Shown here: piece by piece, positions 1 to 17,764 of the stretch | How positions within the stretch are numbered: position 1 is the first letter of the stretch | How the letters are laid out: each line of letters begins with the position of its first letter | Origin: Clostridium sp. AM22-11AC | GTDB lineage: Bacteria; Bacillota; Clostridia; Lachnospirales; Lachnospiraceae | NCBI RefSeq assembly: GCF_003473545.1 | Contig: NZ_QUCM01000008.1 | Span: forward strand, 45,534-109,533 | DNA length: 64,000 nucleotides | Direction of reading: 5' to 3' | The notes under the pieces: model-generated | The model's input: the letters and a program-made list of their open reading frames with translations, nothing else | What the model was told of the DNA's origin: nothing | Databases searched by the model: none | Made by a program: the position numbers and the translations under genes

Positions 1-105
1 GTTGGCAATCATATTCGTTGTCATACCAGCAGCAAGCCTTAAATCTTCTTTTCTCATATCACGCTCTAACAGTGTATGCCAGAGTGGTTTATAGCTGATG
101 TGCAT
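1..105 (-). CDS. XRE/Cro-type HTH regulator, N-terminal part (cut by window edge)
   Basis: An open frame of 35 codons starts at an ATG at 105 and runs off the left edge. It begins MHISYKPLWHTLLERDMRKE and continues into a helix-turn-helix pattern (DLRLAAGMTTNMIAN), which is typical of the small (about 70 aa) XRE regulators found on mobile elements of Clostridia; that family call is from memory. A GGCGGGAAAG ribosome site lies just upstream, and TATAAT near 170-175 (minus strand) may be its -10 box. It lies outside the mobilizable element that starts at about 299, so it belongs to a further foreign segment whose nature cannot be seen here. Confidence 0.7.
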   Translation of the reverse strand, partial: MHISYKPLWHTLLERDMRKEDLRLAAGMTTNMIAN

Positions 106-266
106 ATTGCTTTCCCGCCTTCCTATCCATACCACCGGGGCGGCTGCCCCGGCAGGAACTTTTCTCTTATTATAGCACCAATCTTGTGAAATCACAATTT
201 ATTCTTGTGGACTGCCGCTGATACCGTCTGGATTGTGCTTTTCCTTTCTTTTTGTTCCCTTTAATT

Positions 267-298
267 AGCCATGAACTGCTTGATGCCCTGCGATTTTG
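267..298 (-). pseudogene. maff2: maff2 internal fragment at the left junction of the mobilizable element
   Basis: Read on the minus strand, this short stretch encodes KSQGIKQFMA, the part of Maff2 that normally follows GYGNDNPGA. That preceding part sits 9 kb away at 9436-9576. Joining the two at the shared TTTG (295-298 and 9452-9455, plus strand) restores an in-frame GAKSQGIKQ. The match ends at 267, where two further codons give N and a stop at 261-263, so the usual C-terminal half of Maff2 is absent and a second breakpoint probably lies at about 266. Confidence 0.75.
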
Positions 299-320
299 TT
301 GATGTGTGATAAAGAAGTAA
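299..320. repeat. IME left terminal site (attL side, imperfect inverted repeat)
   Basis: The first bases inside the left junction contain ATGTGTGATAAAGAAGTAA (302-320). The right end, read on the other strand, contains CATGTGCGGTAAAGAAGCTAA (9427-9447). Such imperfect inverted half-sites around a short core are what large serine recombinases bind. The assignment is by comparison of the two ends within this window only. Confidence 0.7.
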
Positions 321-386
321 TAGAAGTGCAAAAAATTTTGCCGTTCCTATCCGGCACTTAGCTCTTGTGTCGGATAGGTCGGGCGG

Positions 387-1997
387 TTATTCGGGCAAGT
401 CCACCTTGCCAACAAAAGAATAATAAATCTCAATGTCCTGCCTACGGGTCTTGTTCTCGTCATAGCTGCACTCATGCACAACGATTTTCTCTACAAACTC
501 CCGCAACAAAGTAGGGGTAAGTTCTTCAAAGCTGGTATGCCGCCGGACAACATTCATAAACTTTTCTGCGTTCACGGTGGCTTCCTGTGCTTTGGAAAGC
601 TCCGCTTGAATAACAGCGGCTCTTTCTTTCAGTTCCCGTTGCTCCGCTTCATAGTCTGCCGACAGCTCTGTGAAACGCTCGTCTGATATGCGCCCGGTCA
701 CGCTGTCCTCATACAGTCGCTTGAAGATAGCGGATAACTCGGCTATGCGTTTCTCGGTGGCTTCCAGCTCCTTTTTCTTGGCGGCGTTCCTGCGCTTGCC
801 CCCGTCCTCGTTCTGCTGGGTCAAGAGCTTCATAAACCGGGCTTCATGCTTTGCCGCATAGCTGGTCACTTTCCGCAGATTGGAGAGTACACCAGCGGTC
901 AAGAGGTCGGTGCGGATAAAGTGCGCCGTACAGTCATGGGTGCGTTTCTTGTAGTTGCCGCAGATATAACAGTCCTGCTTGCGCTTGTCCGTCTGGTATC
1001 GCTGCTGATACATCACGCTGCCGCAGTCCGCACAGAACAGTATGCCGGAGAACAAACCCACTTCATCATAGCGGTTTGGGCGTTTGCGCTGTTTGCGAAG
1101 CTCCTGCACCCGTTCCCATGTTTGGGTGTCTATGATAGGCTCGTGGTGGTTCCCGAAAATCACTTGCTTTTCCGGGGGATTTTCTACACTGTGCTTGACT
1201 TTGTAAGAAAGTTTTTCTGTCTTGAAATTTACCAGACAGCCTGTGTATTCCCGGTTTTCAAGGATATGCACTACGGTATTGGTCGCCCACTTGCACTCAT
1301 AGCCGGGGTGGTAGCGGCGGGTGCTGCCCGTCCTGCGGTATTCAAGCGTTCCCGGCGTGGGGATTTGCTGCTCTGTGAGCATACGGGCTATCTTGGTCGG
1401 ACCGTTCCCGGCAAGGCAGAGGTTGTATATCTGCTTAACTACGGGTGCAGCTTCATCGTCAATAATGAAATTTTCGTCCTCGTCCATGAGGTAGCCATAC
1501 ACAGGTTTGCTTGTGATTGGCTTGCCACTCATACCTTTTGAGCGTTTTACTGCTTTGATTTTCTTGCTCGTATCTCTCACCAGCCATTCGTTAAAGATAT
1601 TCCGCAGCGGGGCAAAGTCATTGTCGCCCTGTGCGCTGTCCACTCCGTCATTGATAGCGATGAAGCGGACGCCTTTCTGTGGGAAAACCATTTCCGTGTA
1701 CATTCCCACTTGCAGGTAGTTTCGCCCTAACCTCGACATATCCTTTACGATAACTGTCCCGACTTTTCCGGCTTCAATGTCCGCAAGCATGGCTTGAAAA
1801 CCGGGTCTTTGAAAGTTCGCACCAGAATAACCGTCGTCCGTGTACCAGCGCAGATTGGAAAAGCCGTTCTGCTTTGCATAGGTTTCAAGAATACGCTTCT
1901 GGTTGGAAATGGAATTGCTCTCGCCTTGCAGCTCGTCCTCATGGGAAAGTCTTGGGTAAAGGGCGGTAATTGGTTGTTGGTTGGTCTGTCTTAACAT
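387..1997 (-). CDS. Large serine recombinase (resolvase N-terminal, recombinase, zinc-ribbon, DUF4368-like C-terminus)
   Basis: This 536-aa site-specific recombinase should excise and integrate the mobilizable element. Its N-terminus has the serine recombinase fold: ALYPRLSHEDE with the catalytic serine probably the one after RL, then DDGYSGANFQRPGF and VKDMSRLGRNYLQVG. A recombinase domain follows, then a zinc-ribbon (CADCG at about residues 325-330 and CYICGNYKK some 25 residues later), a coiled-coil region rich in K/E/A (about 400-490) and a C-terminal DUF4368-like end. The length fits the Tn4451/Tn5397 TnpX/TndX class. It lies about 90 bp from the left end of the element and is divergent from the hydrolase gene. 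The ATG at 1997 is preceded by GGAGGAT. Confidence 0.95.
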   Translation of the reverse strand: MLRQTNQQPITALYPRLSHEDELQGESNSISNQKRILETYAKQNGFSNLRWYTDDGYSGANFQRPGFQAMLADIEAGKVGTVIVKDMSRLGRNYLQVGMYTEMVFPQKGVRFIAINDGVDSAQGDNDFAPLRNIFNEWLVRDTSKKIKAVKRSKGMSGKPITSKPVYGYLMDEDENFIIDDEAAPVVKQIYNLCLAGNGPTKIARMLTEQQIPTPGTLEYRRTGSTRRYHPGYECKWATNTVVHILENREYTGCLVNFKTEKLSYKVKHSVENPPEKQVIFGNHHEPIIDTQTWERVQELRKQRKRPNRYDEVGLFSGILFCADCGSVMYQQRYQTDKRKQDCYICGNYKKRTHDCTAHFIRTDLLTAGVLSNLRKVTSYAAKHEARFMKLLTQQNEDGGKRRNAAKKKELEATEKRIAELSAIFKRLYEDSVTGRISDERFTELSADYEAEQRELKERAAVIQAELSKAQEATVNAEKFMNVVRRHTSFEELTPTLLREFVEKIVVHECSYDENKTRRQDIEIYYSFVGKVDLPE

Positions 1998-2209
1998 AAA
2001 ATCCTCCGTTTCCGACAGCCAGCCCCACTATTCCGTATTTCGATTATACCACATGGGGCGGCTGTCTGTATAGCGGCTTCTGCTTCTTTACCGCCCGGTA
2101 AAATGACGATTTTTTACTGTGCGGCTTCTCGCTGCAAAAAAGATAGAAAAGTTCATAACTCTGTGATATACTTTACCGTAAATACACATCAGACATTGCA
2201 GGAGAGAAA

Positions 2210-2830
2210 ATGAAAACTATATTACTTCATGGATTAGGGCAAACATCATCAAGCTGGAAAAATACGATTAACACTATGGGGAAAAGTGCGGACATTTTAT
2301 GCCCGAACCTTTTTGATTGGTTTGAAGATAAAGAGGTCTGCTATCAAGTTTTATATCTTGCTTTCTCCGAATACTGTAAGCAATTTTCAGAACCGGTCAA
2401 TATCTGTGGGCTATCTTTAGGCGGTATTCTCGCATTGCAATATGGGATTGAAAATCCAGATAAAATAAACTCTTTGGCGTTGGTTGCGACACAATATACA
2501 ATGCCGAAAAAACTCTTGCAATTTCAAAATATGCTCTTTCAGTTTATGCCTAAAAGAACATTTGAAAGCATGGGACTTGGTAAAACGGATTTTATCAATC
2601 TGTCAAAATCCATGATAAACTTGGATTTCCAAAAAGAATTGAAGTGTATCAATAGCCCTGTAATGGTTATCTGCGGGGAGAAAGATGCAGCAAATAAACA
2701 GGCTTCTTTACAGCTTCAATCGCAGTTACCACAAGCCGAATTATTAGTGATTAAAAATTCTGGACATGAAGTAAACATAGACGCTCCCGAAGATTTGGGG
2801 AAAGCACTCTCCGCATTTTTCAACCTATAA
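2210..2830 (+). CDS. Alpha/beta hydrolase (IME cargo)
   Basis: This 206-aa protein has the alpha/beta hydrolase signature. LHGLGQ near residue 6 forms the oxyanion hole, GLSLGG near residue 66 is the nucleophile elbow with the catalytic Ser, CGEKDAANK near 153 carries the acid, and NSGHEVN near 184 carries the His. There is no signal peptide, so it should act in the cytoplasm; the substrate cannot be told. It is the only plus-strand gene of the element, divergent from the recombinase, with a TATACT -10 box near 2167 and GGAGAG before the ATG. A strong hairpin follows it. It looks like cargo rather than part of the transfer or integration machinery. Confidence 0.85.
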   Translation: MKTILLHGLGQTSSSWKNTINTMGKSADILCPNLFDWFEDKEVCYQVLYLAFSEYCKQFSEPVNICGLSLGGILALQYGIENPDKINSLALVATQYTMPKKLLQFQNMLFQFMPKRTFESMGLGKTDFINLSKSMINLDFQKELKCINSPVMVICGEKDAANKQASLQLQSQLPQAELLVIKNSGHEVNIDAPEDLGKALSAFFNL

Positions 2831-2840
2831 TTTCTCCGCC

Positions 2841-2870
2841 AGCGGTCACGCCAAAAGCGTGACCGCTTTT
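2841..2870 (+). terminator. Rho-independent terminator after the hydrolase
   Basis: A perfect 11-bp stem (AGCGGTCACGC at 2841-2851 with GCGTGACCGCT at 2857-2867) encloses a CAAAA loop and is followed by a short T-run. It ends plus-strand transcription of the hydrolase and, being symmetrical, may also serve tnpW on the minus strand. Confidence 0.85.
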
Positions 2871-2880
2871 CAGTATCATG

Positions 2881-3069
2881 TTAAATCACCGTTTTTTGTG
2901 TAGCAGTTTCCGCTTCCAGCACTTTCATCATCTTGTCGGCTGCGGTGGCTGTGGTATCTTTCTTGAAAAAGCCGGACACAACAAGCACGGTGTTACCCAT
3001 GCGGATCTCCGTCACGCAGTCCGGGCGGCGGTCGGTGCGGTCATTGTTATTCTGTTTGTTTTCTGTCAT
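2881..3069 (-). CDS. tnpW: TnpW family transposon-encoded protein
   Basis: This 62-aa protein begins MTENKQNNND and contains the TnpW core (TEIRMGNTVLVVSGFFKKDT followed by a short helix with KMMKVLEAE). TnpW-type proteins accompany Tn4451-like serine-recombinase elements; their biochemical role is not established as far as I know. The ATG at 3069 was chosen over the upstream TTG at 3075 because AGGAG lies 7 bases before it. It is the last gene of the minus-strand replication/mobilization operon. Confidence 0.85.
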   Translation of the reverse strand: MTENKQNNNDRTDRRPDCVTEIRMGNTVLVVSGFFKKDTTATAADKMMKVLEAETATQKTVI

Positions 3070-3081
3070 AGGCAACTCCTT

Positions 3082-3921
3082 TCACTTCAACAGTTCTTTT
3101 AGTCCATTGAGCTTGGCTTGTGCCGTTTCCTTTCGGAAGTTCTTGCCTGTAAAGAGGATAGGCAGACACATTTCAAGCACTCGGTCATGGATACGGGCGT
3201 GGGCGGTGTCCTGTGGATTCTGCAGTTCCGTAAGGCTTAGATTGGTGGTGACAATCAGCGGCTTTCGGCTGCGGTATCGGCTGTCAATTACATTGTAGAC
3301 CTGTTCCAAACCGTACTCTGTGCCACGCTCCATACCAAAATCATCAAGTATCAGCAGAGGGAAACGGCAAAGACGCTCGATATATTCGTTTCGCCCCTCA
3401 AAGCTGGCAGTTAAATCATTCAGTATCGCAGAAAAGTTTGTCATGCGGACGGAGATTTCCTGTTCCATAAGGGCATTGGCAATGCACCCGGCAAAATAGC
3501 TTTTTCCTGTGCCTACCTTGCCCCACAAGAGCAGACCATAGTTGTTTTCTCTCATCTGCTCCCAATGCTCCACATATAAATGTGCCTTGCTCATCTGCGG
3601 GCATTTGCCGTTGTCATGTGCAAAAGTCCATTCCTGCATGGTGAGGTCGGTAAAGCCCCGGCGTTTCAGTTCCATAACGGTGTTAAGGTGTCGTCTGCGT
3701 TCCTCGGCGGATTCACATTCCAAACGCTTCTCCCGTTGGCAGTCACATTCTGTCGGGTGCTTGTCATGCCCCAACCATGCGGCGGTTTCTTTGGGAAAGT
3801 AGGCTTCTTTCGCCGTGCGGCATTTGCTGCAGTAAAGCAGACCGTCCTCGCCCGTGTAGTCCTCCGGCTCTGCGGTAGTAGTCATCATATTCAAAACGGT
3901 ATCGGTAAAAAGTTCAGTCAT
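3082..3921 (-). CDS. DnaC/IstB-like ATP-binding helicase loader
   Basis: This is a 279-aa AAA+ ATPase of the DnaC/DnaI type. The N-terminal part holds a Cys cluster (CSKC near residue 31, CDC near 58) resembling the zinc-binding end of helicase loaders. The ATPase part has Walker A GKVGTGKSYF near 138, Walker B LLILDDFG near 192 and a sensor region TTNLSLTEL. It probably loads the host DnaB helicase at the element origin. The ATG overlaps the stop of the upstream replisome organizer (ATGA, 3918-3921), which implies translational coupling. The pair suggests that the element can replicate as an excised circle. Confidence 0.9.
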   Translation of the reverse strand: MTELFTDTVLNMMTTTAEPEDYTGEDGLLYCSKCRTAKEAYFPKETAAWLGHDKHPTECDCQREKRLECESAEERRRHLNTVMELKRRGFTDLTMQEWTFAHDNGKCPQMSKAHLYVEHWEQMRENNYGLLLWGKVGTGKSYFAGCIANALMEQEISVRMTNFSAILNDLTASFEGRNEYIERLCRFPLLILDDFGMERGTEYGLEQVYNVIDSRYRSRKPLIVTTNLSLTELQNPQDTAHARIHDRVLEMCLPILFTGKNFRKETAQAKLNGLKELLK

Positions 3922-4661
3922 AAACTCTCGCCCTCCTTAAAGGTGTAATCGGGTATGCCTTTTTTCGGCGGTTTCTTGGCTTCGTCCTCCTGCGCCCACT
4001 TGTATATCGTGGCTGCATGACTGCGGTATTTCGTTCCTTTGGACGCTATATGAGTAGATAAGCGGTCAATATAATACTCCCATTTGTCGGGCAGTTCCGC
4101 TTTCAGCTCGTCCAGTTCCGTATCGGAAAGAAAAACATTGTTGTATCTGCCATAGCTGCGGGCGGGGGCTTGTCCCGTTTCTAACTCTCTCTCTTTTTCT
4201 ATCTCTATATCTATCTCTTTCTTTATCTCTATCTCTGGCGGACGAATGTCGGACAAATGTCCGCCGTTTGTCCGGGGTGGTGGCAAAGCCTTGTTTGCAA
4301 GCCTTGCCGCCCGTTTTCGTTCCGCTTCGGTAGAGGATTGCCCTATCATCAGTTCAATATCGGTCATGTAGAGCAAGCCGCCGTGTAGCTGCTCCACAAG
4401 CCCCAACTGCTGAAAAATCCCTAACGCCCGTTCCACCGTGCCTACCTGCTGACGGGTAAGAGTGGCGATCATCTGTGCTGTGTAAGGGATATTCTCGTCA
4501 AGCTGCAACTTGCCGCCGTTTTTCAGCGATTTTAAGTACAGCTTCAAGAGAATGTTGGAATAGAGAATACCGTCCGGCATACTCTCCAACAGCACGATAG
4601 CGTCATCATCAAAATAGCTTTCTTTCAGTTTGAGGTAGTAATATTTGCGGTTATCTGCCAT
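3918..4661 (-). CDS. Replisome organizer / replication initiator (phage replisome organizer N-terminal domain)
   Basis: This 247-aa protein begins MADNRKYYYLKLKESYFDDD. Its first 120 residues form a DnaD-like winged-helix domain (ILYSNILLKLYLKSL, then IATLTRQQVGTVERALGIFQQLGLVEQ). A charged linker with an EIEIKKEIDIEIEKEREL stretch leads to a C-terminal helical part (WEYYIDRLSTHIASKG). It most likely recognises the origin and recruits the helicase loader encoded directly downstream. AAAGGAGG lies 9 bases before the ATG. The linker DNA is a low-complexity TCTATCTC run at 4190-4235. Confidence 0.85.
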   Translation of the reverse strand: MADNRKYYYLKLKESYFDDDAIVLLESMPDGILYSNILLKLYLKSLKNGGKLQLDENIPYTAQMIATLTRQQVGTVERALGIFQQLGLVEQLHGGLLYMTDIELMIGQSSTEAERKRAARLANKALPPPRTNGGHLSDIRPPEIEIKKEIDIEIEKERELETGQAPARSYGRYNNVFLSDTELDELKAELPDKWEYYIDRLSTHIASKGTKYRSHAATIYKWAQEDEAKKPPKKGIPDYTFKEGESL

Positions 4662-4845
4662 AGGCGGTGTCCTCCTTTGGTTTCCAACGCTTGGAGTAAT
4701 ACCGGTGGCAGAGGATAATCACGGCTCGGAAACTCTGCTTGCAATCGTGGGTGCAACCCCGGCAAAGGTCGTTATAGGTAATTCGGTTTCGGTGGTTGAG
4801 GAAAAAGCTCCATTCAATCCGCCGTTTGTTGCTCATGCGTGGCAT
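4651..4845 (-). CDS. Small conserved Cys-containing protein of Tn4451-like elements
   Basis: This 64-aa basic protein (MPRMSNKRRIEWSFFLNHRN...) has three close cysteines (CRGCTHDC) and an additional later Cys, which could bind metal. The ATG at 4845 was chosen over longer forms because AGGAG lies 8 bases upstream. The 3' end overlaps the start of the replisome organizer by about 11 bases. I recall similar short hypothetical proteins in the same position of related elements, but no function. Confidence 0.6.
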   Translation of the reverse strand: MPRMSNKRRIEWSFFLNHRNRITYNDLCRGCTHDCKQSFRAVIILCHRYYSKRWKPKEDTAYGR

Positions 4846-5047
4846 TGGTACGCTCCTTTCTGCCGTTTCCGTGGGTATCACGGATAGGGCGGGAAAACTG
4901 TATCTTCTCGGTATCATTTTCGGGGATTTTTTGCCCTGTACGCCCTGTTTTGAGGTCGGGGAGTATTGCGGATAGGGGTAAGGGTATATCCCTGTTTTTG
5001 TTTGGTTTCGGTATCATTTCGGGGCGGTTTTTAACGCTCCTGTTCAT
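4814..5047 (-). CDS. Small hypothetical protein between relaxase and the Cys-containing ORF
   Basis: This is a 77-aa open frame, basic and proline-rich at its start (MNRSVKNRPEMIPKPNKNRD). It overlaps the relaxase stop by 17 bases and the next small ORF by 32 bases. Such overlaps are common in compact mobile-element operons, but no strong ribosome site is visible and coding is uncertain. If it is not coding, the interval 4846-5030 is an untranslated gap of about 185 bases. Confidence 0.35.
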   Translation of the reverse strand: MNRSVKNRPEMIPKPNKNRDIPLPLSAILPDLKTGRTGQKIPENDTEKIQFSRPIRDTHGNGRKERTNATHEQQTAD

Positions 5048-6647
5048 GCTTTTTCTGTCTGCTCGGTTCGCCGTGGTGCATTTGGGAAAGATTGCTTTTC
5101 ATGGTCTGCAACTCCCGGACACGCTCTTTATTTGCCCGGTACTCGTTGTAAAGGGCGTTCTTCTCGGCGGTAAGCTGCTCGATTTCAGCCTGCAACGATT
5201 TATAGGTGGGCAGCTTGATAATGTCTTTTTGCCGAAAATATCTTACGGCTGCGTCTGCTATGATAAAGTCGCTTTCATGCTTTTCACGGTAGGCTTTGCG
5301 TGCCTTATCGGTTTTCTGCTTTTTCAAGCCGTCACGCACATCTCTTGTCTTGGCATAGGCAAGCACCTGTTTCTGCAAGTCCTTTTTCTCACGGATAGCC
5401 GTTTCAATGGGCTTCAGCTTGGCGGTGCTGCTGTGTAAATCCGCATTGGCAGACACAAGGGCTGCGTCCAGTTCATCCGGGGTAAAGCCGTATTGCTCCA
5501 TAGCGGCAACGGTAGCCGCCATCTGTTTGAGATTGTGGACAGCCGCCCAACGGTCATAGCCGATACCTTTTCCCTCGGCTCGCTTCGCCGCACGGTCAAC
5601 CATTCTCTGAATGTTGCCTGTCGGGGCGATTTTCTGCGTTTTTCCTCGCTCTGTGCGGTTTGTTTCAGCGGTATGGTATTCGGGTATGGGTACGGTCTTT
5701 TCGGCGGCTCTGTGGGCGTTCTGCTCCAAAAGAGTAAGAACGGCAGCGCGGTCAAAATCATCTCCCAGCTTGCGGGCGGTAATGGGCTTTGTCCTGTCCG
5801 GCGTGAGGTAGGATAGCCGCCCTCGGCTCTCCTTGACAGTCACGCCCTGTTGCAAGAGAACGGCGGCGAACTCGCCATAGCTTGCGGCAGAGGACAGCGC
5901 GGTGCGTATGGCCTGCCGCAATTTTTCCTTGTCTGTTTCAAACTTCGTGGGCTTGGCTGGCTGCTCCTCGGCTGGCAAGGCGGCAGCTTCCTTGTCCAGC
6001 TTTGCCTGCCCTTTCCGCTGCGCCCAATACTCACGCTCGGTAATGCGGTTTTTGCTGCCATGCAAAAGGTCGATTTGATAGAGATTTTCCCGGTGGCACA
6101 TCTCCATGACCTCGGCTTTGAAGTATTCCATAGCAGCGTCCGTACAGCGGTGCTTGCACCCGGCACGGGTATCTGCCGGTCTGTCCATGTAGGGCAGTAA
6201 GGGTACTTCCTCGATACGCAGAGAATTGATAACAATGTGAACATGGATATTGCCGCTGTGGTTGTGTCCGTCCGGGTGGGTACAGACAATGGCTTGGTGT
6301 CCTGGGAAATGCTCGGCACAAAATTCCTCGCCCAATGCTTGCGCCCGGTCTACGGTCAAGCCGTTGTCCGCTGCGTCCCGTGGGTCAAAGGAAATGATAT
6401 AGTGGTGGCTTTTCACATCTTCCCGTTTTTGGTTCTTGCCGTATCGGAGATTTGCCCGCATACAGGCAACGGCAAAATCTTCCTCGCCGCAGTTCAGCGT
6501 GGCTATTCGGTAATCCTCCCGGAGAATGAGCCGCCCGGCTTCGTCAAGGGTGGGCTTCATGGTAAACTCGTCATGCTCAAAGGTTAGATACTGCTCGGCT
6601 GCACCGTAGTCCGCATTTTTAGAGCTGATATGCTTGAATGTTGCCAA
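5031..6647 (-). CDS. Relaxase / mobilization nuclease (MOBP-like)
   Basis: This 538-aa relaxase should nick oriT and pilot the strand through a helper's conjugation channel. The N-terminal 200 residues form the relaxase domain: SHHYIISFDPRD, CTHPDGHNHSGNIHVHIVIN with the HxxxxxHxH metal triad, and an early tyrosine (near residue 15) as candidate nucleophile. The rest is charged coiled coil. A TTG at 6647 (MATFKHISSKN) is preferred because AGGTAGGT sits 7 bases upstream; a GTG at 6656 would add three residues. The start lies within the last codons of mobC (stop at 6619), indicating coupling. Confidence 0.92.
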   Translation of the reverse strand: MATFKHISSKNADYGAAEQYLTFEHDEFTMKPTLDEAGRLILREDYRIATLNCGEEDFAVACMRANLRYGKNQKREDVKSHHYIISFDPRDAADNGLTVDRAQALGEEFCAEHFPGHQAIVCTHPDGHNHSGNIHVHIVINSLRIEEVPLLPYMDRPADTRAGCKHRCTDAAMEYFKAEVMEMCHRENLYQIDLLHGSKNRITEREYWAQRKGQAKLDKEAAALPAEEQPAKPTKFETDKEKLRQAIRTALSSAASYGEFAAVLLQQGVTVKESRGRLSYLTPDRTKPITARKLGDDFDRAAVLTLLEQNAHRAAEKTVPIPEYHTAETNRTERGKTQKIAPTGNIQRMVDRAAKRAEGKGIGYDRWAAVHNLKQMAATVAAMEQYGFTPDELDAALVSANADLHSSTAKLKPIETAIREKKDLQKQVLAYAKTRDVRDGLKKQKTDKARKAYREKHESDFIIADAAVRYFRQKDIIKLPTYKSLQAEIEQLTAEKNALYNEYRANKERVRELQTMKSNLSQMHHGEPSRQKKHEQER

Positions 6648-7026
6648 CAGCGTCACCTACCTTTCGCAAGACTTCAAACTTCAAGGCGGCAAGGTCGGAA
6701 ATGGCGGCTCGCACTTCAACGGACAGCGTATTGTAGGGCGTTCCGTATTCGTTGAGGGCACGGGCGATCTGATTAAGGTTGCCGCCGATTTTTCCGTATT
6801 CGGCTATCAACTTTCCAACAGCGGACAGCAGTTCATCATTGACCGGGGAAACGGTAACAATGGGGCGAATGGTCGCCCTTGTAATGGCTTGTCGGATAAA
6901 CTCGGCTTGGCTCATGTCATAATTCTTTAGCCGTTCTGTGAAGTCGGCATATTCTTCTTCGGTCATGCGTGTCTTGACTACATGGCTTCGGTGGGGCGTA
7001 TTGTATCGCTTTCCTATGGGTATCAA
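6619..7026 (-). CDS. mobC: MobC-family relaxosome accessory protein
   Basis: This is a protein of about 135 aa with an N-terminal ribbon-helix-helix-like segment (VKTRMTEEEYADFTERLKNY, then MSQAEFIRQAI) and the MobC hallmark GGNLNQIARALNE near residue 80. MobC proteins bind oriT and help the relaxase open the nick region. The start is awkward: the frame opens with TTG at 7026, directly abutting AAAGGAG, so initiation may be at a rare codon a few triplets later. It lies directly downstream of the candidate oriT. Confidence 0.85.
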   Translation of the reverse strand: MIPIGKRYNTPHRSHVVKTRMTEEEYADFTERLKNYDMSQAEFIRQAITRATIRPIVTVSPVNDELLSAVGKLIAEYGKIGGNLNQIARALNEYGTPYNTLSVEVRAAISDLAALKFEVLRKVGDAVGNIQAYQL

Positions 7027-7559
7027 CTCCTTTCACTTACCGCCGTTTTGTGGGCGATTTTTTAAGTATTTTTTGGTGGGATTTTCAAGCGGCACAAGCC
7101 GCATAGCAGGGTTTGGGGAAGGCACTCCCCAACAAGATTCCCGCAGGGGCAAAATGAGCGATAAGCGAATTTTGGCACCTCGGTAGAATCTTGCTCTAAG
7201 AAACTGCCGGACTGCCGTTCACTTGCTACTGCCACTTTTTCGGGAAATCTATAACCAGCTTTTTTATAAAAGGCTGCGGGCGGCGTTCTCCCCTTACTCC
7301 CTACAACACCGCAAAAAGCAAAAATGACGGACTTTCCGGCAAGAACTTTTCCTGCGGCGTGGTCTTTCCCGACAATAAGGCGTTTTGGAAACTGTGTTTT
7401 GCTCGCCGTCTGAAAAAAACGGCAATCTTTTTTGGCTTCACTGTCTAATACGGAACATTTGGAAATTTGCCAAAAATGGGCGCAAAAAAAGCAGCAAATC
7501 TTTTTCGGATTTACTGCTTCATGTGCCGCTGCGGGGCGGCGGGATATTCAGTTTTTATG
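7027..7559. other. Intergenic region between HTH_16 gene and mobC
   Basis: No convincing coding frame is visible in these 533 bases. The mobC-proximal part holds the candidate oriT. The remainder (7200-7559) is moderately AT-rich with several A/T tracts and would hold the 3' end of the sigma/HTH_16 transcript and the mob promoter; no clear -35/-10 pair was recognised. Confidence 0.5.
7105..7200. other. Candidate origin of transfer (oriT) of the mobilizable element
   Basis: Three nested dyads lie upstream of mobC: TTGGGGA/TCCCCAA (7113-7119 and 7126-7132), CAAGATTC/GAATCTTG (7133-7140 and 7186-7193), and CAAAAT/ATTTTG (7150-7155 and 7169-7174). A direct repeat AGCGA-TA-AGCGA sits inside. GAATCTTGC at 7186-7194 resembles the ATCTTGC/ATCCTGC nick context of IncP-like (MOBP) origins; that comparison is from memory. 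Position and structure support oriT; the nick base is inferred. Confidence 0.6.
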
Positions 7560-7760
7560 TTATCGGTCAAGCCGAAACTTGAACAGGCTTTCAATCAGCT
7601 TTGTTCTGATGTAGTCCTCCATATCAGAGTTATAATAACCGTTCATGTTGGAGAAGTAGCGGATATATCCAGCGTATCGGTCAAGGACGGCTTGTATCGC
7701 TATGGGGTCGCCCTCATGTGCCTTTATGATAGTGTCATAGGGGAGAAGTCGGTTACTCAT
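7560..7760 (-). CDS. HTH_16-type small regulator
   Basis: This 66-aa protein (MSNRLLPYDTIIKAHEGDPI...) matches the pattern of the short helix-turn-helix proteins that pair with a sigma-like factor on Tn916- and Tn4451-type elements. The motif EGDPIAIQAVLDRYAGYIRYFS is characteristic of sigma region-2-like HTH_16 domains. Its start overlaps the end of the sigma-factor gene (stop at 7753), so the two are co-translated. In Tn916 the comparable pair controls excision and transfer genes; the same role here is inferred. Confidence 0.8.
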   Translation of the reverse strand: MSNRLLPYDTIIKAHEGDPIAIQAVLDRYAGYIRYFSNMNGYYNSDMEDYIRTKLIESLFKFRLDR

Positions 7761-8196
7761 GGGACAACACCTCCATTTCCTCTTTCAGCCGCTTCAAGGC
7801 AAGCTGAATATGCCGCCCGATTGTGCTGCGTGTCCAGCCGCTTTGTTCTCCGATTTCTTTCTGTGTCAAGTGCTGGAAGTAATATAAAAAGATTTCCTCT
7901 TGTGTCTGTTCCGGCAGCCCGGCAAGAGCCGCCGCAAGGGAACAGCTATCTAAAAATATCGTCTGCCCCCGGACAGAAAACAGATAAGTTTCGCCATAGT
8001 CCGGCACTTGAAAATACTCGTCTGTGGTGCTTAGTGGGACAAACTTTTCTTCGGTCAAATATTCAAGAGAGATTTCCCGTCTCCACCTCGCCGCCAGCAT
8101 ACGGGCAGCGTCAAAGGACGCATGGCGAATAACAATCCGGCAATAGGTATCATGGGTATAGCGGATATGTTCTTGATAGGCTTCCTGTTCGGTCAT
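7753..8196 (-). CDS. Sigma-70-family RNA polymerase sigma factor-like protein
   Basis: This 147-aa protein ends in a region-4 helix-turn-helix (LPEQTQEEIFLYYFQHLTQK, then EIGEQSGWTRSTIGRHIQLALKRLKEEM). The ATG at 8196 (MTEQEAYQEH) is preferred over TTG at 8217 because AAGGGGGA precedes it at proper spacing. It resembles the Tn916 orf7-type sigma-like activator. Upstream, a GC-rich hairpin (8228-8256) lies between this gene and the DUF2812 gene. Confidence 0.85.
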   Translation of the reverse strand: MTEQEAYQEHIRYTHDTYCRIVIRHASFDAARMLAARWRREISLEYLTEEKFVPLSTTDEYFQVPDYGETYLFSVRGQTIFLDSCSLAAALAGLPEQTQEEIFLYYFQHLTQKEIGEQSGWTRSTIGRHIQLALKRLKEEMEVLSHE

Positions 8197-8353
8197 GGAA
8201 AATCCCCCTTTCTTCAATTATGGGAAAGGGCGGCAGCATTTTCTGCTGTCGCCCCTTGATTACCCACCGGCAAGGACAGGCGGGGCTGTCAACGGTGGGT
8301 GCAGCCCATTTACTTGCCGTTGACTGGCTCGGCTGGATTTGCTATTTATATTA

Positions 8354-8938
8354 TCATTCTTGTGTTTTTGCTTCTTGTCTGTTGTGCATGATTTGTATTT
8401 GATATATAAGAACGGGAATCAGAGAAATCAAAGCAAGCACACCAAAAACAATCGAATGATTTATAACTGCAAATATTGCAAACATAAGCAGTATCAACAA
8501 CCATGGATTACGCAGATTTCTGTAATAGTTTTCCTTGTCCTCATAGGAAGTATGAAGTTCAAACGGCTTTCCATCATTCTCTTTTTCTACAATCAACAAT
8601 TCACGGTTGAAGGTTGTAGTGTTGGTCGCAATGCGTCCGCCTTTTTCAGCCCATGGACGCCAACGCACCTTACCGACAGAATAGTTAAGATTGATATTTT
8701 TGAAAAATACCTTATAGCCCATATCTTCCAAAAAGAGGGAATAGTCTTTTGCATTCTCTTTCGATTTTTCTCCGATAAATTCTACACAGTATTTTACTTC
8801 ATTAGGTTTACATTCTTCAAACTCATATAACATTTTCCCCGCTCGAATAAGACGATAGCCCTTCTCCGACATTTTATTCAGCCAATTCGCCTGTGCATTC
8901 AACAGACCACCAAAAAAATGATAACATTTTTTTCTCAT
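8354..8938 (-). CDS. DUF2812 domain membrane protein
   Basis: This 194-aa protein has a soluble N-terminal DUF2812 domain (GLLNAQANWLNKMSEKGYRL near residues 12-31, CKPNEVKYCVEFI) and two hydrophobic helices at about 146-162 and 165-182, followed by a charged tail. It is almost always paired with a PadR regulator in Firmicutes, as here, where the ATG overlaps the padR stop (8935-8938). The molecular function is unknown to me. The pair is cargo near the right end of the mobilizable element. Confidence 0.85.
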   Translation of the reverse strand: MRKKCYHFFGGLLNAQANWLNKMSEKGYRLIRAGKMLYEFEECKPNEVKYCVEFIGEKSKENAKDYSLFLEDMGYKVFFKNINLNYSVGKVRWRPWAEKGGRIATNTTTFNRELLIVEKENDGKPFELHTSYEDKENYYRNLRNPWLLILLMFAIFAVINHSIVFGVLALISLIPVLIYQIQIMHNRQEAKTQE

Positions 8939-9258
8939 ACTGTACCTCCAATAATTCCACTTGCAACCTCTACAAGTTCATTAAGCCTTACAAGTTCTTT
9001 TTTCGCAACTTCTTTTCCCAGTGAGGTAATGATGTATTCTTTTTTTCTACCTTCACAATCTCCGCAAGGCTTAATCCATTTCTTTTCCTGCAAAGAGTTT
9101 AGCGCACCATACAAAGTGCCTGCTCCCAATGAAAGCCGCCCACCTGTTTTTTCTTCGATAAATTGCATGACAGCATATCCATGTTTTGGAGCATAGAGAG
9201 AAAGTAAAATGTAAAATGTCACTTCTGTAAGCGCACCACCTTTCATATTATCACGCAT
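8935..9258 (-). CDS. PadR-family transcriptional regulator
   Basis: This is a 107-aa winged-helix regulator of the short PadR-s1 type: TEVTFYILLSLYAPKHGYAV, MQFIEEKTGGRLSLGAGTLYGALNSLQEKKWI, GRKKEYIITSLGKEVAKKEL, and a short C-terminal dimerisation helix. It is translated from an AAGGAGG site and directly coupled to the DUF2812 gene. A 9-bp inverted repeat around the promoter (9274-9309) is the likely self-operator. PadR proteins usually repress their own operon and release on ligand binding; the ligand here is unknown. Confidence 0.92.
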   Translation of the reverse strand: MRDNMKGGALTEVTFYILLSLYAPKHGYAVMQFIEEKTGGRLSLGAGTLYGALNSLQEKKWIKPCGDCEGRKKEYIITSLGKEVAKKELVRLNELVEVASGIIGGTV

Positions 9259-9273
9259 TGTTTATCCTCCTTG

Positions 9274-9309
9274 TTACGGTTACTGTAATAAATATATCAC
9301 TAACCGTAA
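9274..9309 (-). promoter_or_regulatory. PadR operator/promoter palindrome
   Basis: TTACGGTTA (9274-9282) and TAACCGTAA (9301-9309) are perfect 9-bp inverted repeats 18 bp apart. An AT-rich segment containing TATATT lies between them and would be the -10 region. The site lies 16 bases upstream of the padR start codon, where an autoregulatory operator is expected. Confidence 0.75.
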
Positions 9310-9354
9310 TAGAAGTCAACAGCGTTCAAAGAAATTTGGAAATATGAAAATGAA

Positions 9355-9378
9355 GCAGCAACATCTTGGTGTTACTGC
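9355..9378 (-). terminator. Hairpin insulating the padR unit from maff2 transcription
   Basis: GCAGCAACA (9355-9363) pairs with TGTTACTGC (9370-9378) with one G-U. Read on the minus strand it is followed by a T-rich stretch. It lies just inside the right end of the mobilizable element and would stop read-through from the interrupted maff2 operon. Confidence 0.45.
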
Positions 9379-9426
9379 TCCATTCTTATACGGTATAGCG
9401 GTAGCCTTGGCTGCCTTTGTCTTGGT

Positions 9427-9455
9427 TTAGCTTCTTTACCGCACATGAGCATTTG
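9427..9455. repeat. IME right terminal site (attR side, imperfect inverted repeat)
   Basis: This is the partner of the repeat at 302-320. The core TTTG at 9452-9455 borders the maff2 codons GGT GCA, and the repeat lies directly inside the element. Because of the insertion, maff2 reads into this end and stops at 9436. Confidence 0.7.
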
Positions 9456-9576
9456 CACCTGGATTATCATTTCCATATCCTTCGAGAAGATTGATTACTC
9501 CCCACACACCTACACCTGCGCCGATTGCGGTTACTACTGTTTTAAGTCCTGTTACTGATGTTGTAAAAAAGCCCAT
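9436..9576 (-). pseudogene. maff2: maff2, 5' part, interrupted by the mobilizable element
   Basis: The reading frame encodes 46 residues: MGFFTTSVTGLKTVVTAIGA, GVGVWGVINLLEGYGNDNPG, then ANAHVR and a stop supplied by the inserted element. The first 41 residues match Maff2, a small membrane protein of about 70 aa encoded after the VirD4 gene in Tn1549/CTn-type ICEs. AAAGGAG precedes the ATG. Loss of the C-terminal half, and separation of virD4 from the downstream virB6/virB4 genes, should disable ICE transfer unless the inserted element excises. Confidence 0.88.
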
Positions 9577-9601
9577 TTGATCGTCTCCTTTTGCTTGAAA
9601 A

Positions 9602-9655
9602 TTAAATGAAAAAAGGGAGCTGTTCTGATTTGTGATTTTTCAGAAAAACTCCCAT
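9602..9655 (-). promoter_or_regulatory. Leader ORF overlapping a terminator upstream of maff2 (attenuator candidate)
   Basis: A terminator-like hairpin on the minus strand (arms 9640-9653 and 9615-9628, then six T) lies between virD4 and maff2. An ATG at 9655 overlaps its first arm and opens a 17-codon frame (MGVFLKNHKSEQLPFFI) that ends after the T-run. Translation of this leader would open the stem and let RNA polymerase proceed. The same layout recurs at 12285-12378 and 13094-13125. Confidence 0.5.
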
Positions 9656-9686
9656 AACAATAGTTCCAATATTTAGTTGTAAAGTC

Positions 9687-9711
9687 ACTTCTGGACGCTG
9701 TGACCAGAAGT
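9687..9711. repeat. 25-bp palindromic repeat, copy 1
   Basis: ACTTCTGG and CCAGAAGT arms enclose the 9-base loop ACGCTGTGA. The copy overlaps the virD4 stop codon by one base. Two other copies (12304-12328, 13061-13085) are identical except for one loop base. Read as RNA it is a strong 8-bp hairpin; it could also be a DNA operator. Confidence 0.8.
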
Positions 9712-11528
9712 TAAGCTGTGATTTCTCCGACATCGCATACCTCATCCACCACATCATTCCTCTTAAAACGAAGTCTGTTGCGGTTCTTCACGTATTTTTC
9801 AATGTCAAATTCATTCTTTTTGTCATAATCGGATAACAGCGGGTACTGCTTATGCTTCGTTATATCAAATTTATCTGAGAAAAATGGTCTTACACCTCTA
9901 AGCTGCATGATACACTTGCTGCCATCCATGACCGCAATCTCGTCCTGACTCATTAACTCCTTTCCGGTCTTTTGATAATTCAGACCGTAGGACTGGCTCG
10001 TACCTCTCGTATCCGAGGTATTATAAAGGTCAATCGTTTCTTTTCCAAGGATTTCTGCCAGATCTTTCAGAGTATCTTTCTCTTTTCCTCCCAGAAACAG
10101 GGTAGTGTCGCAGTTTCCTTCAATCGTGGAAGCGTTGTCCCGGTACAGAGCCTTGAGCTGTGACTTTGACTGCAAAATAATAGAAGCTGATATTTCCCGG
10201 CTACGAATGGTAGCAATCAGCTTCTCAAACTGTGGAATCTGCCCGATGTTTGCAAACTCGTCCAGTAAGCACCGGACGTGAATCGGCAGTCTTCCGTTAT
10301 ATACATCATCTGCCTTGTCACAAAGCAGATTGAATAACTGCGAATACATGATACTTACAATGAAATTGAATGTCGCATCGGTATCGGAGATAATGACAAA
10401 CAGTGCTGTCTTTTTCTCCCCCAATGTATCAAGCTCCAGTTCATCATAAGCAGTCAGGTCACGCAGCTCCTTGATGTCAAATGGTGCCAACCTTGCACCA
10501 CAGCTAATCAGAATAGATTTTGCTGTCTTTCCTGCGGCAAGTTTATACTTCTTATACTGCCTTACCGCAAAATGGTTTGGGTTCTTCTGCTCCAGCTCCT
10601 CAAACAGCAGGTCAACCGCATTTTTGAAATTTTCATCATCCTCCCTAGCTTCGCTGGCATCCACCAGATCAATCAGCATGGAAAAATTCTGTTCTTCCTC
10701 CGGTGCTTCGTACCAGATATATGCGATCAGTGCCGTGTAATAGAGCTTTTCGGCTTTCACCCAGAAATCCTCAGAGGCTTGCTGTCCTTCCCCTTTGGTA
10801 TTTACAATGATTGTGTTTACGAGTTTCAGAATGTCCTTTTCGCTCCGGATGTAAGCGAAAGGATTATAATGCATTGATTTTGCAAAGTTAATGGTATTCA
10901 GCACCTTGATCCGGTAATCATTCTTGGACAACATTTTGCCACATTCCACGAGGACTGTGCCTTTGGGATCAGTCACAACGTAGGAACTGTGCATCTGCAT
11001 GAGGTTCGGCTTTACAAAAAATCTGGTCTTTCCGGAACCGGAACCACCGATTACAAGTATGTTTTTATTTCTCGCATACTTCGGCTGCTTTGGTCTGCCG
11101 GACATCATAAGACGCTCCGTTGCCGTTAAAAGCACGTTGTTTTCAAATACCGGATCGACATAAGGCTCTATGTCTTTGGCAGTTCCCCACCTTGCCGAAC
11201 CGTATTCTACTCCCTGCCGGAATTTCTTTGCATTTTTCGCTTTATAATATACTACCATACGAAATCCTATCCCGCATCCCACGCCAACCAGTAAATCCCT
11301 TGGCATAAAACTGGGAAACGGGTTTACAAACGCACCTCCCATCCCATTGATCGTGTCCAACACCTTCTGTAAGGTGTTATCACCTGCCTGCTGTCCATAC
11401 AGCCATGAAACCTTATTCAGAACATACCCGAAGATCACATAGGGAGCGCATTTCAGGGCAAGCTGCTTTTTATTTACCCCTTTTGTTTTTTCTTTGAGAT
11501 TTTTCGGAATTGACTGCAAATCTTTCAC
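9711..11528 (-). CDS. virD4: VirD4-like conjugative coupling protein (CD1115 family)
   Basis: This 605-aa type IV coupling ATPase should link the relaxosome to the mating channel. Two N-terminal membrane helices are visible (about 26-46 and 73-95). YGSARWGTAKDIEPY leads into Walker A GGSGSGKTRF near residue 165 and the YVVTDPKGTVL segment. Walker B is RCLLDEFANIGQIP near 405, followed by IATIRSREISASIILQSKSQ. The apparent start is a GTG at 11528, 20 bases after the pcfB stop; no strong SD is seen, so the true N-terminus may lie slightly upstream. It belongs to the ICE, not to the inserted IME, and could serve both. Confidence 0.93.
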   Translation of the reverse strand: MKDLQSIPKNLKEKTKGVNKKQLALKCAPYVIFGYVLNKVSWLYGQQAGDNTLQKVLDTINGMGGAFVNPFPSFMPRDLLVGVGCGIGFRMVVYYKAKNAKKFRQGVEYGSARWGTAKDIEPYVDPVFENNVLLTATERLMMSGRPKQPKYARNKNILVIGGSGSGKTRFFVKPNLMQMHSSYVVTDPKGTVLVECGKMLSKNDYRIKVLNTINFAKSMHYNPFAYIRSEKDILKLVNTIIVNTKGEGQQASEDFWVKAEKLYYTALIAYIWYEAPEEEQNFSMLIDLVDASEAREDDENFKNAVDLLFEELEQKNPNHFAVRQYKKYKLAAGKTAKSILISCGARLAPFDIKELRDLTAYDELELDTLGEKKTALFVIISDTDATFNFIVSIMYSQLFNLLCDKADDVYNGRLPIHVRCLLDEFANIGQIPQFEKLIATIRSREISASIILQSKSQLKALYRDNASTIEGNCDTTLFLGGKEKDTLKDLAEILGKETIDLYNTSDTRGTSQSYGLNYQKTGKELMSQDEIAVMDGSKCIMQLRGVRPFFSDKFDITKHKQYPLLSDYDKKNEFDIEKYVKNRNRLRFKRNDVVDEVCDVGEITA

Positions 11529-11548
11529 AATCCCGTCAATGACCTTGC

Positions 11549-12022
11549 TTATAAGCTCTGTCCCCTGTCCTTATTTTTCTCTCTGCTGCGCTCCTTATTT
11601 TTATTCTGTGCAACAATCTTCTGAAGTCCTTTCAGTTTCTGTCTGAGTGACGGACGCTGCTGTTTTTTCTCATTAACTTTTACAAATTCCTTGAATGCCT
11701 GTGCAATCACATCGGCATCTTTGCCCTTGAAAAATACAAGATACCTGGGTGGTTCCGTGGTCTTATCCCTTTTTACTGCGAAATCGACATTGTATTTCCT
11801 TGCGACACGCTCAAAGGATTTTATATTGCTATCCGTAACCTCAATGGACTTTGCACCCTCTCCCTGACCGACCAGCTTTTTTACCGGAATTTTCCCATGC
11901 GAAGGCTCCTTATGCTTCTGATGCTCCAGATACATCTTCATTGCCTTCTGTAAAACGCTTGCGGTCAGCTTGGAAGTCTTGATTGCAAGAGCAATCGTTT
12001 TCTGTGTTGTTTCCTCCTGCAC
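11549..12022 (-). CDS. pcfB: PcfB family protein (DUF3801)
   Basis: This 157-aa protein has a DUF3801 domain: an N-terminal helix (TIALAIKTSKLTASVLQKAMKM), then VKKLVGQGEGAKSIEVTDSN and YNVDFAVKRDKTTEPPRYLV. The C-terminal 30 residues are extremely basic. PcfB-type proteins are encoded directly before the coupling protein in Gram-positive conjugative elements and are part of the relaxosome-channel interface; the exact role in this family is not certain. The start is a GTG at 12022 with GGAGG 7 bases upstream. Confidence 0.85.
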   Translation of the reverse strand: MQEETTQKTIALAIKTSKLTASVLQKAMKMYLEHQKHKEPSHGKIPVKKLVGQGEGAKSIEVTDSNIKSFERVARKYNVDFAVKRDKTTEPPRYLVFFKGKDADVIAQAFKEFVKVNEKKQQRPSLRQKLKGLQKIVAQNKNKERSREKNKDRGQSL

Positions 12023-12103
12023 GGTGTACCTCCTTCCTTATCTGCACCGATTGGATTCAGGGTGGAACCAACAGCCTGTGGAGCTGTATTTTCATTCCCA
12101 TAT

Positions 12104-12289
12104 TTACAATTCCTCTCCTTCCTCAAACTCCCTGTCCCACCAGTTCAGTTCTTCCTCATAAAAATCATCCAATGCAGACCTGAGTTCTTCTTCCTGCTTT
12201 TTTGCCTTTATGACATCCCTCACTGCCTTTACCACAACTGCCCCTACTGCAACCGCAATCAATAACTTCTTTCCATTTTTTTTACTCAT
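12104..12289 (-). CDS. Small membrane protein of unknown function
   Basis: This 61-aa protein has a basic start (MSKKNGKKLL), one hydrophobic helix (LLIAVAVGAVVVKAVRDVI) and a strongly acidic tail (FYEEELNWWDREFEEGEEL). GGAAAGGA lies just before the ATG. A 25-bp palindrome and an upstream leader ORF (ending at 12285, overlapping this start) point to translational or transcriptional control. I do not recognise a family. It is probably an ICE accessory gene in the pcfB-virD4 operon. Confidence 0.6.
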   Translation of the reverse strand: MSKKNGKKLLIAVAVGAVVVKAVRDVIKAKKQEEELRSALDDFYEEELNWWDREFEEGEEL

Positions 12290-12371
12290 TTTTGTTCCTT
12301 TCCACTTCTGGACGTTGTGACCAGAAGTTGTTGCAATAAAAAAAGGCAGCTACAAAATCTTTCGATCTCAT
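12285..12371 (-). promoter_or_regulatory. Leader ORF with terminator and palindrome upstream of the 61-aa gene
   Basis: An ATG at 12371 overlaps the first arm of a terminator hairpin (arms 12371-12378 and 12345-12351, then seven T on the minus strand). The leader frame is 28 codons (MRSKDFVAAFFYCNFWSQRP...) and ends at 12285, overlapping the start of the 61-aa gene at 12289. The 25-bp palindrome (12304-12328) lies within it. This is compatible with translation-dependent attenuation. Confidence 0.5.
12304..12328. repeat. 25-bp palindromic repeat, copy 2
   Basis: Same arms as copy 1 (ACTTCTGG / CCAGAAGT), loop ACGTTGTGA. It ends only three bases before the GGAAAGG ribosome site of the 61-aa gene, so as RNA it could affect ribosome access. 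Confidence 0.8.
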
Positions 12372-12378
12372 ACCTGCC
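12345..12378 (-). terminator. Intrinsic terminator/attenuator after the 215-aa gene
   Basis: On the minus strand GGCAGGTA and TAGCTGCC form a stem with one mismatch, followed by seven T. It separates the 215-aa gene from the 61-aa gene; see the leader ORF at 12285-12371. Confidence 0.7.
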
Positions 12379-12398
12379 TTAACGCTGTTACTTTTTCA

Positions 12399-13046: not shown

Positions 13047-13060
13047 TTTATTTCCTTTCC

Positions 13061-13085
13061 ACTTCTGGACGTTGTGACCAGAAGT
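13061..13085. repeat. 25-bp palindromic repeat, copy 3
   Basis: Identical to copy 2, again placed just before a GGAAAGGA ribosome site (215-aa gene) and just after a terminator hairpin. Confidence 0.8.
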
Positions 13086-13093
13086 TATAAAAA

Positions 13094-13125
13094 GGCAGTT
13101 ACAAATCTCTCGACTCATAACTGCC
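13094..13125 (-). terminator. Intrinsic terminator/attenuator after the HNH gene
   Basis: On the minus strand GGCAGTTA and TAACTGCC form a perfect 8-bp stem followed by five T. An ATG at 13118 overlaps the first arm and continues in frame into the 215-aa gene. The loop sequence resembles that of the terminator at 12345-12378, which suggests duplication of the module. Confidence 0.75.
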
Positions 13126-13137
13126 CTATTGCTATTT

Positions 13138-13884: not shown

Positions 13885-13934
13885 GAAATATTCTCCCAGT
13901 CTTTTAAGATAAGACCAATTATAGCATAAACGGG

Positions 13935-15291: not shown

Positions 15292-15307
15292 TCCCGGCTC
15301 CTCCTTT

Positions 15308-16961: not shown

Positions 16962-16984
16962 GATAAAATTCTCCTTATTCTCTA

Positions 16985-17634: not shown

Positions 17635-17671
17635 AGTGAACCTCCTTTAAAAAATTTTTATTTTGCATATA

Positions 17672-17719: not shown

Positions 17720-17734
17720 AATCGAGAGATATAA

Positions 17735-17761: not shown

Positions 17762-17764
17762 GAG

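Follow-up and report, generated by a model that had tools for sequence, protein, structure and literature searches.

We analyzed a stretch of 64,000 nucleotides from Clostridium sp. AM22-11AC (contig NZ_QUCM01000008.1, positions 45,534 to 109,533; hereafter, the window), which holds part of an integrative and conjugative element (ICE) whose maff2 gene is interrupted. Along the minus strand, the virD4 gene of the ICE (11528-9711) is followed by the first 41 codons of maff2 (9576-9454), by an integrative and mobilizable element (IME) that we call IME1, and then by codons for KSQGIKQFMA, an Asn codon, and a stop. Very probably, two different IMEs share this maff2, inserted at adjacent attachment sites: IME1, and a second element, IME2, that runs off the window edge. 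The features at the two sites are as follows (numbers starting with L denote loci used for comparison, and an asterisk in a peptide marks a stop).

9454 to 9576, minus strand: N-terminal 41 codons of maff2 (translation; PF12750 relatives break at profile position 43)
9452 to 9453, minus strand: attL core dinucleotide AA of IME1 (GCN/AATGCTC across loci)
297 to 9451, minus strand: IME1, 9,155 unique bp (9,157 with one core copy), its flanks contiguous in L175, which lacks it
9430 to 9451: left terminal inverted repeat of IME1, identical to the right repeat at 17 of 22 positions (sequences compared)
297 to 318: right terminal inverted repeat of IME1 (sequence compared with the left repeat)
295 to 296, minus strand: attR core dinucleotide AA of IME1 (right-end comparison of relatives)
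276 to 296, minus strand: maff2 sliver KSQGIKQ between IME1 and IME2 (relatives' right ends, double insertions, and the IME2-end pattern)
1 to 275, minus strand: IME2 left end, truncated at the window edge, with an FMAN* tail, a promoter-like sequence, and the start of a helix-turn-helix-like regulator gene

The maff2 gene starts as MGFFTTSVTGLKTVVTAIGAGVGVWGVINLLEGYGNDNPGA (9576-9454), and its open frame continues into IME1 as NAHVR*, with a stop at about 9436. A first-pass annotation, made from the letters of the window, had described a complete serine-recombinase IME nested in the maff2 of a Tn1549-like ICE, with both junctions readable and joined at a shared TTTG. The junctions are indeed readable and the frame is continuous across them, with CAAA (TTTG on the plus strand) common to both sides (9455-9452 and 298-295). 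The codons for KSQGIKQFMA lie at 296-267 and those for GYGNDNPGA at 9480-9454, not at 9456-9485 as the annotation had it. The shared TTTG did not survive comparison with relatives. We searched with the recombinase of IME1, found 519 places encoding one, and kept the best 80 loci (88-99% identical over the best segment), locating left ends in 53 and right ends in 78 of them. Left ends consist of the target (GCN in maff2) followed by AATGCTCATGTRCGG or a near variant, and right ends of ...CATCAGYA or a near variant, then AA, then the target. The base before the core on the left depends on the target, and all four bases (A, C, G, T) are seen there. Since the two alignments share AA and the preceding base is set by the target, the crossover core of IME1, as read from these ends, is the 2-bp AA, which coincides with positions 1 and 2 of the Lys42 codon of maff2. 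We thus rejected TTTG as a 4-bp target: it is the AA core plus two bases that agree by chance.

How specific is this recombinase for maff2? Informative right ends were available in 76 loci, i.e., the 80 minus two that were masked (L066, L068) and two at contig ends (L018, L049). The KSQG codons of maff2 stand directly at the right end in 48 of these 76, counting as maff2 sites three loci with KSQGxK and another short tail (L034, L067, L074). The KSQG codons at the right end of IME1 are not a chance match, because these 48 relatives show the same arrangement and because the flanks abut with a 4-bp overlap in L175. The remaining 28 relatives are integrated elsewhere, so the expectation that ends would fall in maff2 holds for the majority only, and we rejected strict maff2 specificity. 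Since the 28 distinct non-maff2 right flanks keep G at +8 (26/28), G at +9 (23/28), and T at +12 (25/28) from the core, the recombinase seems to recognize a loose dyad, which maff2 provides. A mirror CC is present in many non-maff2 left flanks, judged by eye only.

The best view of the site without IME1 comes from L175, where sequences matching the left flank (window 10532-9452, 90.4% identical) and the right flank (298-1, 97.7%) meet with a 4-bp overlap. The rejoined flanks predicted by the first-pass annotation are therefore matched, and this comparison brought no refutation. The maff2 of L175 has the N-terminal sequence of the window, one residue apart, and the FMAN* tail; behind it come IME2, the IME2 recombinase, and then an open reading frame (ORF) of 290 aa. 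By this comparison, L175 shows both that the insertion of IME1 was a clean event and that IME2 can sit at site 2 without IME1. On the reverse strand of L175, upstream of about 6960, virD4 itself appears to be interrupted near codon 332 by another element with a MobA/MobL-like relaxase frame, and the ICE of L175 would then carry at least two IMEs.

The right side of IME1 is where the second element becomes visible. Right ends in the 80 loci fall into 36 with a true maff2 C terminus (KSQGxKQL[MV]AG.GV... or alike), 9 with KSQGxKQ[FLV]MAN*, 33 others, and 2 that are masked. The window belongs to the KSQGxKQ[FLV]MAN* group: about 18 bp of maff2 past IME1, the frame runs into the FMAN* tail and stops, with no GGG..LL.LF C terminus. 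Positions 1-303 are 94-96% identical to the DNA that borders the recombinase on the right in L026, L036, L037, L038, L068, and L078, and 75-93% identical over all or part of their length in L047, L058, L063, and L069. In L037 and L026, a second IME opens right of IME1. In L037 this IME2 encodes a MobA/MobL relaxase (PF03389), a VapE-like gene or domain, and a second serine recombinase (PF00239/PF07508), together with what we take to be a small regulator and a zinc-finger primase-like gene. The IME2 recombinase, taken from a relative (L085), is 36% identical to the IME1 recombinase of the window. Behind IME2, the maff2 C terminus resumes as KQL[MV]AGGG (L082, L084, L085), and we infer that the IME2 crossover lies inside the CAG codon at 278-276 (Gln48). 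Within the window, the left end of IME2 has a promoter-like TTGTGA-17-TATAAT at 197-169 (the scan gave 24 sites in 12 kb, with 14.6 expected) and, by its reading frame, a regulator gene starting at 105, presumably of a helix-turn-helix type. The right flanks of L034, L067, and L074 have other short maff2 tails right of IME1 (KSQGIKHLVSSM*, KSQGIKHFIPK*, and KSQGMKCFIPN*, respectively), which are probably further kinds of site-2 elements.

These observations bear on the reading of the first-pass annotation, in which a single IME sits in an otherwise intact maff2 and its excision restores the gene and frees the helper. Such a structure does exist on the right side of 36 of the 78 relatives with a located right end, where the maff2 C terminus looks intact. 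In the window, the place of GGG..LL.LF is taken by FMAN* and then by 275 bp matching IME2 ends at 94-98% identity. We consider a single insertion very unlikely here, and rejected it for the window unless the 275 bp are a leftover scrap of IME2 with the ICE genes right behind. The KSQGIKQ codons are maff2, as the first-pass annotation had them, but the KSQGIKQFMA that it joined to the maff2 start is not the ICE's own maff2 end and leads into the left end of IME2.

The two elements are found together and apart in other genomes. Three genomes (L133, L134, L135) contain complete double insertions over about 19-20 kb, in the order maff2 N terminus, IME1, KSQGxKQ, IME2, maff2 C terminus. In L136, L140, and L142, IME2 is alone in maff2, with an LMAK* or FMAN* tail, followed by the maff2 C terminus. 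A pattern of the IME2 end gave 26 matches in a sample of 299 genomes and 6 in a sample of 197, and the reversed pattern gave none in the same 299 and 197 genomes. Upstream of these 32 IME2 left ends are 14 right ends of IME1, 12 maff2 N termini, and 6 other sequences: a contig end (L153), KSQG codons behind unrecognized DNA (L158), and four without maff2 codons. Neither a maff2 N terminus nor IME1 precedes IME2 in L143, L154, L156, and L173 (nor in L158, which has the KSQG codons), and IME2 seems not to be strictly maff2-specific. No sign of mutual exclusion between the two maff2 sites was seen in the two genome samples.

The same counts speak to another possibility, that KSQGIKQFMAN* and the DNA after it are part of IME1, a longer element bringing its own maff2 tail. 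The two are neighbors in 14 of the 32 places, as one long element would require. Yet 12 maff2 genes and 4 places that lack maff2 codons have an IME2 end but no IME1, in 36 loci it is the maff2 C terminus and not IME2 that comes after IME1, and each element has its own recombinase and relaxase. We regard a single long element as extremely improbable. Some points nonetheless weigh against the occupation by two IMEs. Five of the 14 double occupancies (L159, L169, L170, L171, L174) are in genomes that had been picked earlier because they carry such loci, with 9 in other genomes; the exact core of IME2 is a deduced position; and IME2 is represented in the window by its first 275 bp only, cut at position 1.

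Interruption of maff2 is common. Maff2 (PF12750) is present in 36 of the 197 and 83 of the 299 genomes, 79 of the 83 being over the family cut-off. Among the 150 Maff2 matches listed for the 299-genome sample, 82 are full length and 68 are interrupted. The breaks fall at profile positions 38-43 in 47 matches (site 1) and at 50-51 in 14 (site 2); the other 7 have theirs at 44-46, together with an in-frame stop. Some of these breaks may be contig ends. Judged by these breaks, maff2 is an insertion hot spot. Further N-terminal parts of maff2 ending at profile position 44 with an in-frame stop are seen in both genome samples. In L137 (3,501 bp, from the 197-genome sample), at about 340-3180 on the reverse strand, maff2 is split by an insert of 2.8 kb, whose 628-aa frame we take to encode a group II intron reverse transcriptase-like protein.

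Could these insertions be a decayed dead end, with the IMEs and the ICE stuck and maff2 a tolerated sink in defective ICEs? The 68 interrupted matches among the 150 listed would fit such a view. On the other hand, the recombinase, relaxase, and replication frames of IME1 look full length, and the 98.5% identity of its recombinase to those in several genera suggests recent movement, although neither is proof of activity. We think a dead end unlikely, if the least easily dismissed of the alternatives.

In the reading that we prefer, two IMEs in one maff2, IME1 (9451-297) would have been inserted by its own large serine recombinase at the AA core, and IME2 by a different serine recombinase at a core inside the Gln48 codon, about 18 bp downstream of the IME1 core. 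The end of IME2 would supply the substitute tail FMAN*, which would mimic and at the same time truncate maff2. IME1 may excise as a circle through recombination of AA with AA, be nicked at an oriT upstream of mobC, and ride the VirD4 and mating channel of the ICE. The first-pass annotation had proposed that this excision repairs maff2. Because IME2 sits in that gene too, about 18 bp beyond the IME1 site, as L175, L133 to L135, and the pattern hits indicate, excision of IME1 alone would not restore it; it would leave a truncated maff2 of 52 codons ending in FMAN*. For maff2 to be intact, both recombinases would have to act. The first-pass annotation also supposed, from the separation of virD4 from the downstream mating-channel genes, that the integrated IME1 would block its helper, which it might. 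Excision upon conjugation as a means of restoring the helper has already been proposed by Coluzzi et al. in 2017 (PMC5357655). Against a block, ICESp2905 is reported to transfer with IMEs in both its snf2 and its maff2 (PMC5357655, PMC5704250); some transconjugants had received the complete ICE together with the two IMEs, and no other such ICE had been tested by then (PMC5704250).

A structure just inside the end of IME1 argues for a polar effect:

330 to 384, minus strand: intrinsic-terminator-like hairpin and AAAATTTTTT, between the recombinase stop and the IME1 end

The hairpin has a 12-pair helix with 91.6% of the cells paired in the alignment (21-39% in slid controls) and a folding z of -4.1. 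The alignment covers 20 of the 24 distinct sequences, omitting L030, L033, L035, and L055, of which L033 equals the window once trimmed. Both sides of the helix change at 4 pairs, a number reached by 76 of 500 shuffles, and the covariation score was reached by none of 500. Of the five shuffle measures, three were reached by 0/500 and two by 76/500 and 195/500. An alternative 5-pair stem at the hairpin showed no covariation, and Rfam, at its gathering thresholds, gave no match in window positions 1-20000. Because IME1 ends in this terminator-like hairpin, the integrated element probably cuts read-through from virD4 into the ICE genes behind maff2.

The remaining genes of IME1 and the virD4 of the ICE are the following.

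9711 to 11528, minus strand: ICE virD4, a coupling protein of the CD1115 family (NCBIfam NF045973, 571.7 bits with a cut-off of 250; PF02534)
8935 to 9258, minus strand: PadR-like regulator, IME1 cargo (PF03551)
8354 to 8938, minus strand: DUF2812 protein, IME1 cargo (PF11193)
7753 to 8217, minus strand: sigma-70-like factor (PF08281)
7133 to 7193, minus strand: candidate oriT upstream of mobC, in which an imperfect 15-bp inverted repeat is enclosed by a perfect 8-bp one
6619 to 7026, minus strand: MobC/NikA-like relaxosome protein (PF21983)
5031 to 6656, minus strand: MobA/VirD2-type (MobP) relaxase (PF03432)
3918 to 4661, minus strand: replisome organizer (PF09681)
3082 to 3921, minus strand: DnaC/IstB-like ATPase (PF01695)
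2210 to 2830, plus strand: alpha/beta hydrolase, cargo encoded in the opposite direction from the remaining named IME1 genes (PF00561)
387 to 1997, minus strand: large serine recombinase of IME1 (PF00239, PF07508, PF13408, PF14287)

With its own integrase at one end (the recombinase stop is 90 bp from the right end, 386-297), a relaxase with MobC, and defined ends whose empty site is seen in L175, IME1 is, on its gene content, a coherent integrative and mobilizable element, and the complete nested IME of the first-pass annotation stands. The frames of its recombinase, relaxase, and replication genes have a full-length appearance. The nested repeats upstream of mobC could be the oriT: parts of the sequence between 7068 and 7553 have about 88-94% identity in many loci (81-83% over a portion in some of them), more than the about 76-80% of the relaxase region in these loci. 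The hydrolase, between the recombinase and the DnaC-like gene, reaches the cut-off of none of the NCBIfam models listed. A scan of nine IME1 proteins, with the smaller unnamed ORFs outside it, showed no protein of a type IV secretion system (T4SS); there is also no tet ribosomal-protection gene among the nine, nor an IME1 ORF of that size.

The host element has a CD1115-type virD4 and then maff2, as in Tn1549-like ICEs of the Tn5252 superfamily. Upstream of virD4 are genes for DUF3801, HNH, RepA_N/DUF6017, ParB, ParA, and DUF6075, an order that we take to be the one expected of a Tn1549-like ICE. The C terminus of maff2 and the downstream genes for the mating channel are absent from the window, and the genes for VirB6, VirB4, the ICE relaxase, and the integrase would lie beyond its edge. 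In L140, L142, and L175, maff2 is followed by an ORF of about 280-290 aa, presumably VirB6.

What maff2 encodes is relevant to the consequences of these insertions. The protein might be a VirB2-like pilin or pore subunit of the ICE and its gene a paired landing pad, for which two distinct IMEs evolved attachment sites placed back to back and which would be complete only once neither passenger is integrated any more, but we find this doubtful. Some hints favor a pilin: matches to Pfam T4SS_pilin at E up to 1 for 5 of 14 Maff2 proteins (best, 1.4e-4), a model of Maff2 as a two-helix hairpin with a mean predicted local distance difference test (pLDDT) score of 87.7, a longer leader-like N terminus containing AFAA in two variants (L121, L122), and the position of maff2 next to virD4. 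Against the idea, other membrane families match about as well (DUF308, 9.1e-4), a comparison of profiles is weak, at 35%, and the one T4SS_pilin score seen, 16.7 bits, is under the cut-off of 26.6. A pilin hidden Markov model built from 5 sequences reached 7.8 bits at most in 74 Maff2 proteins and 7.8 in 740 shuffles (medians, 1.2 and -1.2), and so did not clearly set Maff2 apart from the shuffles. A fold search with Maff2 gave a best E of 1.9, among helical hairpins of many kinds, and a sequence search of the PDB gave nothing relevant. A 2025 review states, in the section covered, that VirB2 and VirB5 have not been found in Gram-positive T4SSs, except in Patescibacteria (PMC12857230).

The recurrent double occupancy of a single gene of 70 codons makes maff2 a landing pad that elements share, with two or more adjacent sites. 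When the codons flanking an element are read as the halves of maff2, the DNA beyond them can be misplaced, and models in which the helper is reactivated once one passenger excises have to include the second IME. Should maff2 prove necessary for mating, such pairs of insertions would be a testable example of two parasites that share control of a single helper. The matter extends to resistance, since IMEs in maff2 are described as carrying resistance genes among gut bacteria (PMC12904643).

The first-pass annotation stated that serine-recombinase IMEs of other Firmicutes target conserved ICE genes including maff2, and streptococcal IMEs do target maff2 (PMC5357655). IMEs in maff2, two separate sites in this gene, and two IMEs in one traG have already been published (PMC5357655, PMC5704250). 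Among the closest cases are IME_ScoC232_maff2_site1 and IMESp2907 (maff2 site 2), which reside in Tn5252-superfamily ICEs and share with our elements the serine integrase, the insertion in maff2, and the existence of two sites; they are listed for different hosts, and the portions of these papers covered describe no maff2 with both (PMC5357655, PMC5704250). IME_Sco1050_traG_site1 and IME_Sco1050_traG_site2 are alike in being two serine-integrase IMEs at two sites of one ICE conjugation gene, but their target is traG (VirD4) and not maff2 (PMC5704250). IMEs of Streptococcus suis in "Tn1549_mb prot," a membrane-protein gene of Tn1549-related ICEs, may possibly be in maff2, but the gene is not called so in the text covered and the host is a streptococcus (PMC7168690).

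IME1 resembles the IME_Rho_tet family, which carries tet(W) and prefers maff2 (116 of 256 elements, and 36 of 39 "hypothetical protein" sites also resemble maff2) (PMC12904643). Both have terminal inverted repeats, a preference for maff2 that is not exclusive, and a relaxase with mobC. The 3' end of IME1 is 90 bp after the recombinase stop, with a published range of 81-90 for IME_Rho_tet, and its terminal repeats are identical at 17 of 22 positions, those described for IME_Rho_tet being 21 bp long (PMC12904643). The family's recombinases are defined by 85-100% identity to a reference protein (PMC12904643). In the comparison with its relatives, the recombinase of IME1 is 98.5% identical to the recombinases of eight loci with a ribosomal protection protein (RPP)-like N-terminal motif and 86.1% identical to that of L138, which carries a TetM/W/O/S-type protein; the RPP-like motif is somewhere in 29 of the 80 relatives' loci. 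The recombinase of IME1 is thus probably of the same kind as that of IME_Rho_tet. IME1 differs in having no tet gene, in its PadR/DUF2812 and hydrolase cargo, and in the second IME in the same maff2. The words "tandem" and "nested" are absent from the main text of PMC12904643, and the literature searched, in the parts covered, yielded no description of two IMEs in one maff2, although supplementary tables might hold one. Compared with these known systems, what appears new to the literature searched is that a single maff2 repeatedly holds two IMEs whose cores lie about 18 bp from each other, an arrangement with FMAN* as its signature.

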